Assembly (NCBI RefSeq): GCF_002868735.1
Contig: NZ_CP025613.1
Location: 620,001-684,000 of the forward strand
Reading direction: 5' to 3'
Length of the DNA stretch: 64,000 bases
From: Niveispirillum cyanobacteriorum
Lineage (GTDB): Bacteria; Pseudomonadota; Alphaproteobacteria; Azospirillales; Azospirillaceae
In this document: positions 15,406-20,403 of the stretch, in pieces
Position numbering within the stretch: the stretch's first letter is position 1
Layout: every line of letters starts with the position of its first letter
The notes under the pieces: model-generated
The model's database searches: none
What the model saw: only the letters and a program-made list of their open reading frames with translations
What the model was told of the DNA's origin: nothing
Made by a program: the position numbers and the translations under genes

Positions 15406-15869
15406 GTGGATTCTATTTTGAAGTGCGACTCCCCTTTATAATCAGATGGTTAGCAATGGAGGCTGCCATGGGAGAGCACTATTCGCACCTGAGTTTGGCG
15501 GAACGGCGCCGGATTGACGAGATGTTCCAGGCGTCGATCCCAGTTCGGGAGATTGCGGCGCGGCTTGGCCGGCATCGCGGGACGATCCATCGTGAGATCA
15601 ACCGGAACTTTTACCACACCTCTTTCCGGGACCGGTTTGGCAACGACTACCGTGGTTACTTCTGCATGACGGCAAATGCGATGGCCAAGCATCGGCGGCG
15701 ATCTGGCCGGGTGAAATTGCTGCGGCATCCGGCCCTTCTGGCGCATGTGGTGGCGAAGCTGCATTCGGGCTGGCCAACGCGGCAGAAGCGTTCAGCAGCA
15801 AGCTGGCTGCTATAAAGCGAAATGATTACAATGCACTGCAACCAAGTCGCACTTCAGTGTGAATCCAAC
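15406..15869. mobile_element. internally deleted IS30-family element (464 bp)
   Basis: Both ends carry matching inverted terminal repeats: GTGGATTC...GAAGTGCGACT at 15406-15430, and its complement AGTCGCACTTC...GAATCCAAC at 15845-15869. The inner 11 bp are identical and there is one indel. Between them is only the first third of an IS30-type transposase gene. Full-length IS30 relatives are about 1.0-1.2 kb, so most of the interior has been lost while the ends remain. Such a remnant could still be mobilised in trans. Short target duplications cannot be assigned confidently. Confidence 0.75.
15468..15815 (+). pseudogene. truncated IS30-family transposase (N-terminal fragment)
   Basis: A 115-residue remnant. 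Its start, YSHLSLAERRRIDEMFQ, and the helix-turn-helix IPVREIAARLGRHRGTIHRE are the classical IS30 DNA-binding domain. The similarity continues to VAKLHSGW, where family members normally read on into PEQIA and the DDE catalytic domain. Here it switches to an unrelated PTRQKRSAASWLL and stops. The catalytic domain is absent, so the product cannot transpose, although it could bind the element's ends. GGAGG lies six bases before the ATG at 15468. The break point near 15770 marks the internal deletion. Confidence 0.85.
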
Positions 15870-15893: not shown

Positions 15894-16598
15894 TTATGAC
15901 AGCCACTTCCTCAGCGCCTCGTTGAAATCAACGGGTTCCTCTGCGGGTGCCATGTGGCCGGCCTGCTCGATAATCGACAAACGCGAACCCGTAATCGCCG
16001 CTGCGATGTCCTGATGCTGATCAACCGGCGACCAGCGGTCATCGCGACCGACGATCACGGCGGTGGGACAGGTGATTGTGGGTAGGACCGGTGCCGCATC
16101 AGGACGGTTCAACAGGGCGTTGATCTGGGCCTCATAGATGGCCACGCCGGCATCGACGCACATAGCCCGCAAGCTAGCAAAGAGTTCCAAGTCATCGGCA
16201 TGGGACGGTCCGATCATCGGTGGCAGCCACTGATCAATCATCGCCCCCGCCCCGGCACTACGGCCCAGGTCACGCAGGGCAAAGCGCTTTTCGGCTTCTC
16301 CGGGGCGGACCGGATGCACGCCTGTATCGGCCAGGGCCAGGCGCGCCACCCGTTCCGGTGCGCGCCGGTAAAGTTCCAGCGCAACCCGCGCGCCCATCGA
16401 ATGGCCCAGCAGGGCACACCGTGCGGGCATGCGGGCCAGGACATAGTCAACCATGGCCTCAATATTGTCGGCCCCGCCATAAAAGCCATTGATACATTGG
16501 CCTTCGAAGGCACGGATCTGATGGCCGAACATCCGGCTGTCACACATCAGTCCGGGCAGGATGACCAGCGGCGCGTCACAAACGACAGGGGCAGACAT
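15894..16598 (-). CDS. alpha/beta-hydrolase
   Basis: A 234-residue cytoplasmic alpha/beta-hydrolase. The triad is visible: nucleophile Ser 67 in LLGHSMGARVALE, acid in VGRDDRWSP and His in EQAGHMAPAEEP. The oxyanion strand is LVILPGLMCD. Similar proteins are esterases, thioesterases or carbon-carbon hydrolases, and specificity cannot be stated. It is the last gene of a same-strand run with the photoactive yellow protein and the p-coumarate ligase-like gene, 113 bp after the latter. A part in chromophore supply or thioester turnover is possible but only suggested by position. It abuts the IS30 remnant. The ATG at 16598 is preferred over an upstream TTG. Confidence 0.8.
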   Translation of the reverse strand: MSAPVVCDAPLVILPGLMCDSRMFGHQIRAFEGQCINGFYGGADNIEAMVDYVLARMPARCALLGHSMGARVALELYRRAPERVARLALADTGVHPVRPGEAEKRFALRDLGRSAGAGAMIDQWLPPMIGPSHADDLELFASLRAMCVDAGVAIYEAQINALLNRPDAAPVLPTITCPTAVIVGRDDRWSPVDQHQDIAAAITGSRLSIIEQAGHMAPAEEPVDFNEALRKWLS

Positions 16599-16711
16599 TG
16601 GCAATCCTTTACGGGTTTACACTGCAAGTGATGGCACATTGGCGCCGCCCGCCGCTAATCGCTTTTGCCCCTCGCCGATAAGCTTTGGCTAACCGTCACC
16701 TGCCCGTTCTT

Positions 16712-17932
16712 TTACCAATCGCTCAGCTTGCCAAGCGCTGATGTCGGCAAGGCGGGTCCGAAGGTCCAGCTTTTAGGCCTCTCCTCAGGCTGCAAATTCA
16801 TCGTTGCCCAGTCAGTCAGGCGGGCTTGCAGGCATTCAATGTCCTTGGTGCTCACCGGCACGATAAAGGCTTTCAGGCGCAGACCGTCGCTGATCGTCAT
16901 GGACCGCACGACCGCCTCGGTCACATCGGGGTGCTGACGCAGGCAGGCTGCCACCTGTTCAGGAAAGACGTTGACGCCCCCCACCTGTACCGCGCTATCG
17001 CGACGGCCCCGCAGGCGGAACTGCCCTTCTCCCGATAGCTCCACCCGGTCAAGCAGGTCTTGCCCCTGCCCTTGCCAATCCCGGTCAAGCCGGCTACCGT
17101 CCGCCGATATGGACAATCCCTCCAGTAGAGTGAACGGCTCATCAGGGCGGCAGCGCCAGCCGATGCCCGCCGTCTCGCTGGAACCGTAAATCTCTGTCAG
17201 CGACAGGCCCCGTCCGATCAGTTCCGCGAAAAGGTCGGGCGCAAGCGGCCCGGTGGAACATAGTCCGGCCCGGCCCGTCAGGTCGGCGGGGCCGGTGCGC
17301 GCGATCAAGGCCCATTGTTCGGGAACGGCCACCAGCAGGTCACCTGCTTCCATCTCCGCTGCCACCCGGCCCGGCATGCGTCCGCGCGCATCCACGAAGG
17401 ATATGTCGAGAAAGCGGGGCAGCAGAATGGTGAACAGAAAGCCGTATATATGATGGCACGGCACCATCCCGATCACCCGCCGCACCGGCCCCAGGTGCCG
17501 GGCCTGCGCCCGGATTTCGGCCTCAAGCCCGGACAGCGCGTGACGGCAGGGCTTTGGCGTGCCCGTGCTGCCGGACGTGTGAAAGGTCAGCTCCGCATCG
17601 AAGACCGACAGGCCACGGGCCGCAATCTGCGTCCAATCGCCCAGACGGCGATGCATCAGCAGATAGTCCTCGATCCCTGAACGGTGGAGGTGCAGCGCTT
17701 CCGTCAGACCGGTCGCCACTGTCACCAGTTCCAGGCTGTCCATGCCAAGGCCACCGGGACCGATTTCCATATCCTGCTGCCAACCGGCGGGTGGCGGCAA
17801 GCGTTCGCCAGGGCGAAGTCGGACAAGATCACCTGCGACCTTATCAGCGATGAAGCGCTGCAGGCTGTCCCCAGCCTGCCACCAAGGAGCGGTTTCCGCA
17901 TCGGTGCGCGGTACTGCAAGCGTCGATGTCAT
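16712..17932 (-). CDS. compact AMP-forming acyl-CoA ligase, probable p-coumarate ligase for PYP chromophore
   Basis: A 406-residue adenylate-forming enzyme. The P-loop-like TSGSTGTPKP sits at only about residue 120, the aromatic segment MVPCHHIYGFLF follows, and ETAG in YGSSETAGIGW marks the A5 region. Near the end come RGRRDSAVQVGGVNVFP (hinge) and the C-terminal lysine region. 4-coumarate ligases are usually 500-550 residues with the P-loop near 190, so the N-terminal half is strongly reduced. Instead, residues about 55-105 contain GLGMDSLELVTV, which looks like a phosphopantetheine attachment site of an acyl-carrier domain. The gene starts 26 bp downstream of the photoactive yellow protein stop. 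Activation of p-coumarate to its thioester for attachment to PYP is the natural inference. The ATG at 17932 follows GGGGGTGG; a GTG at 17941 is less likely. Confidence 0.8.
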   Translation of the reverse strand: MTSTLAVPRTDAETAPWWQAGDSLQRFIADKVAGDLVRLRPGERLPPPAGWQQDMEIGPGGLGMDSLELVTVATGLTEALHLHRSGIEDYLLMHRRLGDWTQIAARGLSVFDAELTFHTSGSTGTPKPCRHALSGLEAEIRAQARHLGPVRRVIGMVPCHHIYGFLFTILLPRFLDISFVDARGRMPGRVAAEMEAGDLLVAVPEQWALIARTGPADLTGRAGLCSTGPLAPDLFAELIGRGLSLTEIYGSSETAGIGWRCRPDEPFTLLEGLSISADGSRLDRDWQGQGQDLLDRVELSGEGQFRLRGRRDSAVQVGGVNVFPEQVAACLRQHPDVTEAVVRSMTISDGLRLKAFIVPVSTKDIECLQARLTDWATMNLQPEERPKSWTFGPALPTSALGKLSDW

Positions 17933-17958
17933 GGAAACCACCCCCGGTGAAAGACGGC

Positions 17959-18348
17959 TCAGAGCCGCTTCACGAAGACCCAGTAGCTGTCGCCAACCAG
18001 GGCCTTCTTCATATGAACCTTCACCTTGGTGGGCTTCATATTATAATCGAACGTGTACTCGATCATCGTGTTCAGATTGCCGGACTTCACGCCGGCATCA
18101 AAGGCACCCTTGAAGGCGGCGGTGTTGGTGCAGGGGGCCACTTCTGTAAAGAAGCTCTTGCCAATCACGGCCTTAGGGTCGCGCCCGGTGATCGCCCCTT
18201 CAGCGGCATTATATTGCAGGATGCGGCCTTCCGAATCCAACTGCACAGCGCCGAAGGCCAAGCCATCGATCTCGGTGGACGACATTTTCGACATGACATT
18301 CTCAATGTCAGCCTTGCCGAACTCGACGAGTTGGAAATCATTCAACAT
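17959..18348 (-). CDS. pyp: photoactive yellow protein (blue-light photoreceptor)
   Basis: A 129-residue PAS-fold photoreceptor, nearly collinear with the Halorhodospira halophila protein with a +4 offset. The key residues are all present: Tyr 46 and Glu 50 in LQYNAAEG (chromophore hydrogen bonds), Thr 54 and Arg 56 in TGRDP, the chromophore-binding Cys 73 in EVAPCTNT, and Met 104 in [10 protein letters not shown]. The C-terminal [16 protein letters not shown] is essentially the canonical ending. The protein binds p-coumaric acid through a thioester at the Cys and photoisomerises under blue light. The next gene encodes the likely ligase. No tyrosine ammonia-lyase gene is in the window. AGGACA precedes the ATG at 18348. 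Confidence 0.97.
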
Positions 18349-18454: not shown

Positions 18455-19291
18455 TTACAGCCGCGCGGCGTGCCAGCGAAGATGGTCTTCAATGAAGCTG
18501 GAGATGAAATAGTAGGAATGATCGTAACCTTCCTGCAGGCGCAGGGTCAGGGCGATCCCGGCCTTGGCGCAGACATCGGCCAGCAGTTGTGGGCGCAGCT
18601 GGTTATCCAGGAACCCGTCCGCCGTTCCCTGATCAACCAGGATTTCCGGCACCCGCGCCCCATCCTCGATCAGCGCCACGGCATCATGCCGACGCCATGC
18701 CGTCTGGTCACCGCCCAGATAGGCCGGAAAGGCTTTCTGTCCCCACGGCACCTGCGCCGGCGCCACGATGGGCGCGAAGGCAGAAATCGATTTGAACCGG
18801 CCCGGATAACGCAGGGCCACGGTCAGGGCACCATGCCCACCCATGGAATGGCCGGTGATGCCCTGCCGGCCCATGTCGACGGGGAAATGCGCGGCCACCA
18901 GGGCCGGCAGTTCTTCCGTCACATAGGTCCACATCTTGAAATGCGGTGCCCAGGGTGCCTCCGTCGCATCAACATAGAAGCCCGCCCCCTGGCCCAAGTC
19001 CCAGCCGGCATCATCGGCCACGCCCTCGCCACGTGGGCTGGTGTCGGGGCAGACGATGATAAGGCCCAGTTCCGCCGCCCAGCGCCGAAACTCCCCCTTC
19101 TCCGTCACATTCGCATGGGTGCAGGTCAGGCCCGACAGGTACCAGACGACGGGGCAATTGGCCCCGCCGAGCGCCTGTGGCGGAGTGAAGACGCTGAACA
19201 CCATTGGCGTGCCGGTGGCGGTGGAGGTGTGGCGATACACAGCCTGCACGCCGCCATGGGACCGGGTAGTGGAGACGGTTTCAAGGGTCAT
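18455..19291 (-). CDS. fghA: S-formylglutathione hydrolase
   Basis: A 278-residue esterase-D-type hydrolase. Visible are WYLSGLTCTHANVTEKGEF (the family oxyanion region), nucleophile Ser 149 in GITGHSMGGHGAL, DQGTADGFL with the acid, and EGYDHSYYF with the catalytic His. It cleaves S-formylglutathione to formate and glutathione, the second step of glutathione-dependent formaldehyde removal. Its ATG at 19291 follows the adhC stop after only two bases (TGATCATG), so the two are cotranscribed and probably translationally coupled. Confidence 0.95.
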   Translation of the reverse strand: MTLETVSTTRSHGGVQAVYRHTSTATGTPMVFSVFTPPQALGGANCPVVWYLSGLTCTHANVTEKGEFRRWAAELGLIIVCPDTSPRGEGVADDAGWDLGQGAGFYVDATEAPWAPHFKMWTYVTEELPALVAAHFPVDMGRQGITGHSMGGHGALTVALRYPGRFKSISAFAPIVAPAQVPWGQKAFPAYLGGDQTAWRRHDAVALIEDGARVPEILVDQGTADGFLDNQLRPQLLADVCAKAGIALTLRLQEGYDHSYYFISSFIEDHLRWHAARL

Positions 19292-19293
19292 GA

Positions 19294-20403
19294 TCAATAG
19301 ACCACAACGCTGCGGATGCTCTCACCTGCATGCATCAGGTCGAAACCCTTGTTGATCTCTTCCAGGGTCAGGACGTGGGTGATCATCGGGTCGATCTCGA
19401 TCTTGCCCTGCATGTACCAGTCAACGATCTTCGGCACGTCGGTGCGGCCACGCGCGCCGCCAAAGGCCGACCCCTTCCAGACGCGGCCCGTGACCAGCTG
19501 AAACGGACGCGTCGAAATCTCCTTACCGGCCTCCGCGACGCCGATCACCACCGACACGCCCCAGCCACGGTGGCAGGCCTCCAGCGCCTGACGCATCACG
19601 ATCGTATTGCCCGTGCAGTCGAACGTGTAGTCAGCACCACCCTCGGTCAATGCCACCAGATGCTGGACGATATCGCCCTCGATCTTCTGCGGGTTGACGA
19701 AATGGGTCATGCCGAAGCGCTGACCCCATTCGGCCTTGCGGTCATTGATATCGACGCCAATGATCTTGTCGGCCCCTACCATGCGGGCCGCCTGGATGAC
19801 ATTCAGGCCGATCCCGCCCAGGCCGAAGACCACCACATTGGAACCCGGTTCCACCTTGGCCGTATTGGTCACGGCACCGACGCCCGTGGTCACGCCGCAG
19901 CCGATATAGCAGGAGGACTGGAACGGCGCGTCCTCCCGGATCTTGGCGACCGCGATTTCAGGCAGGACCGTGAAGTTGGAGAAGGTGGAGCAGCCCATAT
20001 AGTGATAGATGGGCTGGCCCTTATAGCTGAACCGCGTCGTGCCGTCGGGCATCAGGCCCTTGCCCTGCGTGGCGCGGATGGAGGTGCACAAGTTGGTCTT
20101 GCGCGACAGGCAACTTTTGCACTGTCGGCATTCCGGAGTGTACAGCGGAATGACATGGTCGCCGGGCTTCAGGCTGCTGACCCCTGCCCCCACTTCGCGC
20201 ACAATCCCGGCCCCTTCATGGCCCAGGATAGAAGGGAAGATGCCTTCGCTGTCGAACCCGTCCAGCGTATAGGCATCGGTGTGGCAGATGCCCGTCGCCA
20301 TGATCTCGATCAGCACCTCGCCCGCCTTCGGGCCTTCCAGGTCCAGTTCGACGATTTCCAGCGGCTTCTTGGCCTCGAAAGCGACGGCGGCGCGGGTCTT
20401 CAT
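19294..20403 (-). CDS. adhC: S-(hydroxymethyl)glutathione dehydrogenase / class III alcohol dehydrogenase
   Basis: A 369-residue zinc alcohol dehydrogenase of class III. Catalytic zinc ligands are Cys 40 ([11 protein letters not shown]) and His 62 (GHEGAGIV); structural zinc cysteines fall in the cluster [15 protein letters not shown] at about 92-106. The Rossmann motif is [11 protein letters not shown]. The ending ([13 protein letters not shown]) is typical of glutathione-dependent formaldehyde dehydrogenases (FrmA/AdhC). It oxidises the spontaneous formaldehyde-glutathione adduct with NAD+. It forms an operon with fghA and is divergent from a LysR regulator that is the obvious candidate for its control. 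Confidence 0.95.

Follow-up and report, generated by a model that had tools for sequence, protein, structure and literature searches.

A predicted acyl-carrier-like domain in the p-coumarate ligase linked to photoactive yellow protein and a possible carrier route for its chromophore

Introduction

How does the p-coumaroyl chromophore of photoactive yellow protein (PYP) get from its ligase to the cysteine that holds it? PYP is a model photoreceptor and a prototype PAS protein, and holo-PYP has reportedly been produced by tandem expression of postulated genes, as the title of a 2003 paper by Kyndt has it. Passages in two published accounts state that the p-coumarate ligase (pCL) attaches p-coumarate to CoA (PMC12826048; PMC6273459). 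In one of them coumaroyl-CoA is said to react with apo-PYP, and a chromophore-attachment role is given to Cys69 of H. halophila PYP (passages in PMC12826048).

The DNA analysed here, a stretch of 64,000 nucleotides from Niveispirillum cyanobacteriorum referred to below as the window, raises the question in a particular form. A preliminary description made from the letters alone had pointed out, beside a PYP, a ligase of about 406 residues with its P-loop near residue 120 and, ahead of it, the segment GLGMDSLELV, whose serine (Ser66) resembled the attachment site of a carrier protein. Size, neighbour, P-loop and segment were all confirmed in the sequence, GLGMDSLELV being residues 61-70 of the protein. 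Whether such a ligase releases its product to CoA or could hold it on a carrier domain of its own is considered in what follows.

Results and discussion

The features of the locus are collected in Table 1. The open reading frame (ORF) holding the pCL gene, 16712-17941 (-), can be read as 409 residues from the GTG or as 406 from the ATG, and this ATG comes 26 bases after the stop of the pyp gene on the same strand. The match of the window PYP to TIGR02373 reaches 196.1 bits (cut-off 143.05), and the protein keeps the chromophore Cys73 together with Glu50 and Tyr46.

Table 1 Features of the pCL and pyp genes and of their surroundings in the window
Feature	Position	Strand	Basis or remark
pCL (PYP-linked p-coumarate ligase), 406 aa	16712..17932	(-)	ATG start at 17932; alternative GTG 17941
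Predicted N-terminal acyl-carrier-like domain, residues about 18-110	17603..17881	(-)	profile comparisons
Ser66 in the DSLE motif, proposed site for phosphopantetheine	17735..17737	(-)	conservation and TIGR02372 profile
P-loop TSGSTG of adenylation domain, residues 119-124	17561..17578	(-)	sequence
Lys402 near pCL C-terminus	16727..16729	(-)	invariant, 23/23 aligned sequences
PYP, 129 aa, presumed acceptor	17959..18348	(-)	TIGR02373 match
PYP Cys73 codon, chromophore attachment (Cys69 in H. halophila PYP)	18130..18132	(-)	role from PMC12826048
Short ORF with HTH_38	15423-15815	(+)	
Alpha/beta hydrolase	15894-16604	(-)	
Putative esterase and zinc alcohol dehydrogenase	18455-20403	(-)	

The best NCBIfam match of the window pCL was TIGR02372, 4-coumarate--CoA ligase, which we take to be the 'PYP type' model; its description names a CoA ligase and does not mention a carrier domain. 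The score of 300.7 bits is below the curated cut-off of 334.7 and, among 385 genomes of the class, no match exceeded the cut-off and six had E <= 1e-40. The window pCL was therefore filed as a PYP-linked relative of TIGR02372 and not as an equivalog hit. Residues 25-406 of the 409-residue reading match positions 6-385 of the 386 in the model and, as the profile is thus covered nearly end to end, the compact N-terminus is the norm of this ligase family and not peculiar to the window gene.

The remainder of the protein has the hallmarks of the ANL enzymes: an AMP-binding domain (PF00501, 47.3 bits, cut-off 29.9), a P-loop and a C-terminal domain with a conserved lysine. PF13193 is also matched (29.1 bits, cut-off 24.5). 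Among the 23 aligned pCLs, Gly121 and Lys402 are identical in all and Ser120 in 22; Lys402 is presumably the A10-type catalytic lysine. PF00501 is matched only from position 168 of 384, and the usual ANL region before the P-loop is absent, the stretch there in pCL giving no match to the N-termini of nine ANL enzymes of the window genome (P 0.76; see below).

Relatives were collected by genome searches, which gave matches in 6 of 385 genomes of the class, 12 of 59 near relatives and 3 of 398 genomes of the phylum, the window genome itself being among the matches of each. Three narrower searches gave matches in 3 of 9, 2 of 200 and 5 of 64 genomes; only one of the five in the last reaches the N-terminal region. 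Two named contigs supplied further relatives, as did 15 matching plasmid records (9 of them over at least 80% of the query); the plasmid matches H4 and H8, which to judge by their rows duplicate H3 and H7, were left out. The set used for conservation comprises 23 P-loop-bearing sequences, the window counted. A1, the alignment of the N-terminal domain, has 21 rows, the near-copies L003 and L035 having been dropped. L017 and L028 represent a single locus of one organism, and L017 was used in the alignment; L011, a fragment without the N-terminus, was left out of the counts. Also excluded from the conservation set was L025 (1318-2640), a distant relative from another genome of the same class. It has neither the DS motif nor the P-loop, there is no PYP in its 4.1 kb, and it is perhaps a retired or repurposed copy.

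PYP was found in the flanks of 23 of the 25 ligase loci searched (the window counted, L017 and L028 being the same place), and at a 24th locus, L022 in genome G271, it lies about 1.6 kb off on the same contig. The 23 loci yielded 27 PYP matches near ligases, some of them only 27-33% identical to the window PYP. The chromophore Cys and the Glu are present in all 27, and the Tyr in 26, with Phe in its place in the remaining one. Among the 385 class genomes PYP occurs in eight (E <= 1e-25), and the six with a ligase (E <= 1e-40) are all within these eight. Divergent PYP homologues (29-32% identity) with the chromophore Cys kept were seen at L029 (5279-5668), L033 (7639-8007) and L034 (2321-2683); they lie near pCL and diguanylate cyclase genes and carry the public annotation 'phosphonate transporter', which looks like a naming error. 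Around one ligase gene, at L027 (400-3895; genome G888), 4.1 kb contain four stretches resembling PYP, and each of these has the chromophore Cys.

An aryl-polyene-like cluster, with ketosynthases and free acyl carrier proteins (ACPs), was not found among the tested neighbours of the window pCL, which were PYP, hydrolases, an alcohol dehydrogenase, a LysR regulator, a sensor kinase, a glyoxalase-like protein and a PAS protein. In the flanks of 24 relative loci, which often extend over about 1.5 kb, the alpha/beta hydrolase seen just downstream of the pCL gene recurs once, at the close relative L003, and so it is probably not a fixed partner of pCL. The short ORF on the opposite strand has a helix-turn-helix (HTH_38) like that of transposases and is probably the remnant of an insertion sequence. 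Directly upstream of pyp are genes for a putative esterase, seen also at the close relatives L003 and L004, and for a zinc alcohol dehydrogenase, seen also at L004. As a guess, they may serve glutathione-linked formaldehyde removal.

The preliminary description had taken the GLGMDSLELV segment to be carrier-like, and profile comparisons agree, with matches that extend beyond the motif. A search of 177,635 PDB sequences with A1 (hmmsearch) gave 92 matches at E <= 10, the best at 8.2e-5. Of the best 60 of these 92, 51 are named acyl carrier protein and seven more (PigH, four NDUFAB1 rows and two SDAP rows, all of which we take to be carrier proteins) were counted with them; the two non-carriers are lysozyme-DCN1 chimeras (E 0.39-0.40). 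The best alignment spans profile positions 39-93, continuing through the region after the motif. When the domain was compared by hhalign with an ACP/PCP set of 33 sequences (two bad rows removed: L052, truncated, and L060, in the wrong frame), the local match had a probability of 86 and P 4.9e-6, and the global alignment ran over 89 columns with P 7.7e-6. A smaller set of six ACPs gave a probability of 50 and P 1.6e-4, and 30 fully column-shuffled controls gave probabilities of at most 0.4.

The signal in Pfam is fainter. When the members were searched one by one, PP-binding was the only family matched more than once, weakly and by 6 of the 21 members (best E 0.009). Neither the window pCL nor its domain matched PP-binding (PF00550) at E <= 10, and a search of the whole window genome for PP-binding found four places, in frames of 78-115 residues located away from pCL, with the window pCL gene not among them.

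How much of the similarity lies in the motif was seen from shuffling and masking. With the eight motif columns fixed and the flanks shuffled, none of 299 shuffles reached the observed local score (33.9, against a mean of 23.5, sd 2.1 and a highest value of 32.4; one of the 300 shuffles gave no local score), and one of 300 reached the observed global score, an outlier value of 129 that was retained in the count. Masking the motif made the ACP match vanish, both with the larger set before its two bad rows were taken out (P 0.17 local, 0.11 global) and with the set of six, so in these profiles the DSLE motif is the main carrier signal and the flanks are an addition. A DSLE motif present by chance alone is disfavoured by the flank-shuffle test, although the motif-masked profile detects nothing.

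The domain matched neither the N-termini of eight aryl-polyene-type ligases (P 0.78) nor those of nine ANL enzymes chosen from the window-genome set as full-length (P 0.76). The two sets of N-termini do show a match to one another (P 1.5e-5) and none to ACPs (P 0.48 and 0.40). On these values a remnant of a normal adenylation N-terminus was rejected, and the earlier suggestion that the segment is not part of a normal adenylation domain is supported. AlphaFold gave a mean pLDDT of 36.0 for full pCL as a single sequence and of 46.7 for residues 17-116 with two close relatives (three sequences), values too low for a usable model.

From the profile comparisons, residues of about 18-109 are very probably a distant homologue of ACPs. 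The domain is accordingly best described as a putative distant homologue working like an ACP, and not as a member of PF00550. Discrete ACPs of that family have the Asp-Ser-Leu motif and a flanking pattern that is also found in the pCL domain; they stand alone, whereas the carrier-like domain of pCL is fused ahead of the ligase and has no PF00550 match.

The pattern of conservation points to the same serine. Asp65 and Ser66 are identical in all 23 aligned P-loop-bearing sequences (Leu67 and Trp100 in 22), and within residues 15-112 they are the only positions that never vary. A1 spans members with 21-88% identity to the window domain, and there too no columns other than D and S are invariant. 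Across these 23 sequences, then, the pCL family has the ACP-type Asp-Ser-Leu attachment motif, with its Ser invariant. The first 119 residues of pCL score 44.0 bits against positions 6-103 of TIGR02372. This score fell by 4.1 bits on changing Asp65 to Ala, by 3.5 for L67A, 2.8 for W100A and 2.4 for S66A, and moved by +0.6 to -1.0 bits for Ala changes at five other sites. As the changes at D65, S66 and L67 lower its score, the sequences behind NCBI's model seem to favour the same DSL motif.

The idea put forward at the outset, of p-coumarate held on this particular enzyme, is thus partly supported, and altered in scope. Its ACP-like segment and its serine, invariant in the relatives, stand; the compact carrier-like layout, which had been presented as special to the window enzyme, is instead a trait of the PYP-linked ligase family, as the coverage of TIGR02372 indicates. 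The preliminary description had also held that its reading would fall if the segment were common to all known PYP-linked ligases and its serine unmodified. The segment is indeed common to those sampled, modification of the serine being the other half of that argument.

The catalytic half leads to a type of ligase of which one member is reported to load a carrier protein. In a two-sequence comparison, residues 115-405 of pCL are 31% identical to a ligase ORF of Cupriavidus metallidurans (E 2e-26). This ORF runs about 125 residues beyond the ligase; two free ACP genes (NCBIfam) lie upstream of it, with one other reading frame between, and the cluster was read as being of the aryl-polyene type. 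TIGR02372 scores 99.1 bits against the Cupriavidus ligase, and this match begins only at profile position 98, from which it follows that the ligase has no carrier part. A maximum-likelihood tree with 47 rows gathers the 23 pCLs in a single group (99/100); a moderately supported branch (88/94) sets them, with eight aryl-polyene-type ligases, apart from 16 other ANL enzymes of the window genome (18 AMP-binding matches less the window gene itself and L096, for which no reading frame was obtained). The eight are not one group in the tree, some rows are long, and the label 'aryl-polyene-type' denotes similarity only for L041-L043 and L081-L084. In this tree the catalytic half of pCL groups with, and would be related to, the AMP ligases of aryl-polyene type.

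Two such enzymes, the AMP ligases of aryl-polyene and xanthomonadin biosynthesis, are informative here. ApeH, of the ligase type that came out nearest to pCL, according to a passage in PMC8253772 adenylates 4-hydroxybenzoate (4-HBA) and loads the ACP 'without the formation of an intermediate CoA-thioester', and ArcT is described in part of PMC3949708 as active with 3-HBA. Their catalytic half is akin to that of pCL; unlike pCL, the aryl-polyene AMP ligases have their ACPs as separate genes and keep an ANL-like N-terminus. FlxY of the flexirubin pathway is described as a bacterial 4-coumarate ligase, poorly related to plant 4CL, that yields coumaroyl-CoA in vitro (passage in PMC3992019). FlxY and pCL are both bacterial 4-coumarate ligases, and are likened here by description and not by sequence.

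The fusion, the similarity to ACPs, the invariant Asp-Ser pair, the intact ligase motifs and the nearness to PYPs that keep their Cys can all be read from the sequences compared, and they suggest how the enzyme may work. On balance, pCL is likely to be a two-domain enzyme, composed of an acyl-carrier-like domain (residues about 18-109) and a short AMP-forming ligase without the usual ANL N-terminal part, that loads and delivers the chromophore itself. A host phosphopantetheinyl transferase (PPTase) would put 4'-phosphopantetheine on Ser66. The ligase domain would adenylate p-coumarate, and the p-coumaroyl group would then be moved onto the phosphopantetheine thiol, either in cis or between the two members of a dimer. 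The carrier domain would present this thioester to apo-PYP, and the chromophore cysteine would take the p-coumaroyl over by trans-thioesterification. Loading in cis may be strained, as the sequence leaves just a few residues between the carrier domain and the P-loop strand. Of these steps, phosphopantetheinylation of Ser66 is the one to be expected with good confidence, while carrier-held delivery of p-coumarate to PYP is favoured less strongly; self-loading with direct hand-over would leave little or no need of free coumaroyl-CoA.

The window genome has two genes of the PPTase family, read as one AcpS-like and one Sfp-like. It has one aromatic ammonia lyase (L036, G000:C3:86167-87534), which was read as a histidine lyase, although a HAL-like enzyme acting on tyrosine is possible. 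A dedicated tyrosine ammonia lyase seems to be absent from this genome and, as the sole aromatic lyase found reads as a histidine lyase, p-coumarate may be taken up by the host.

The strongest alternative, although an unlikely one, is that pCL is an ordinary CoA ligase. Free p-coumaroyl-CoA would then load PYP, and the ACP-like domain would be a fossil, a scaffold in place of the ANL N-terminal subdomain, or a dock for PYP, and unmodified. CoA is stated as the acceptor in passages of the published accounts (PMC12826048; PMC6273459), FlxY gives coumaroyl-CoA in the part of PMC3992019 referred to above, and a short ANL-type chain without the long N-terminal part does exist (PDB 4gs5, 358 aa, matched from residue 40). 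A scaffold, however, would need no invariant Asp-Ser, yet these are the domain's only two invariant residues, and the single relative without the DS motif, L025, is also without a P-loop, albeit this is one case. Tandem expression, if done in E. coli, would not separate the CoA route from the carrier route, since the controls to the PPTase gene search show that this host brings its own PPTase genes.

Distinctly less probable again is that both routes operate. The holo-enzyme would load its own carrier, and free CoA or pantetheine would also be accepted, giving coumaroyl-CoA as a side product or second donor. With such a relaxed choice of acceptor, the reports of CoA and the conservation of a carrier motif would no longer be at odds, but ApeH, a related type of ligase, is reported to skip CoA in the passage quoted (PMC8253772). 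A diverged normal adenylation N-terminus with a coincidental DSLE, already strongly disfavoured, is highly improbable, for although the window domain alone has no Pfam match and ACPs are lost to the profile once its motif is masked, the P values are 0.76-0.78 to ANL N-termini against 4.9e-6 to carriers, 58 of the best 60 of 92 PDB matches are carriers and the columns beside the motif contribute to the match (0 of 299 shuffles locally).

Conclusions

The arrangement proposed for pCL has partial precedents. In NRPS A-PCP didomains and in carboxylic acid reductases an adenylation domain loads a carrier on the same chain. There the carrier follows the adenylation domain, whereas the carrier-like domain of pCL stands in front, and the product goes on to an assembly line or to reduction and not, as proposed for pCL, to the cysteine of a protein. 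Adenylation and carrier on one chain are therefore known already. What appears to be new is a carrier ahead of a shortened ligase, putting a chromophore on a protein; neither this nor a description of a carrier domain in pCL was found in the open-licence literature, among the matches listed.

The chances are about even that this holds wherever the ligase family is used, that is, that a self-loading carrier enzyme installs the PYP chromophore and passes the p-coumarate thioester straight to the cysteine. If true, a prosthetic group would here be attached to a protein by way of a carrier protein, and the textbook route by free coumaroyl-CoA would be replaced. Production of holo-PYP would then need a PPTase, a need that heterologous expression in E. 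coli could have masked, and the evolution of PYP would be linked to pigment (aryl-polyene) pathways. Delivery of the chromophore would be direct and guided by protein, and this would point to a reason for a dedicated ligase to accompany pyp.
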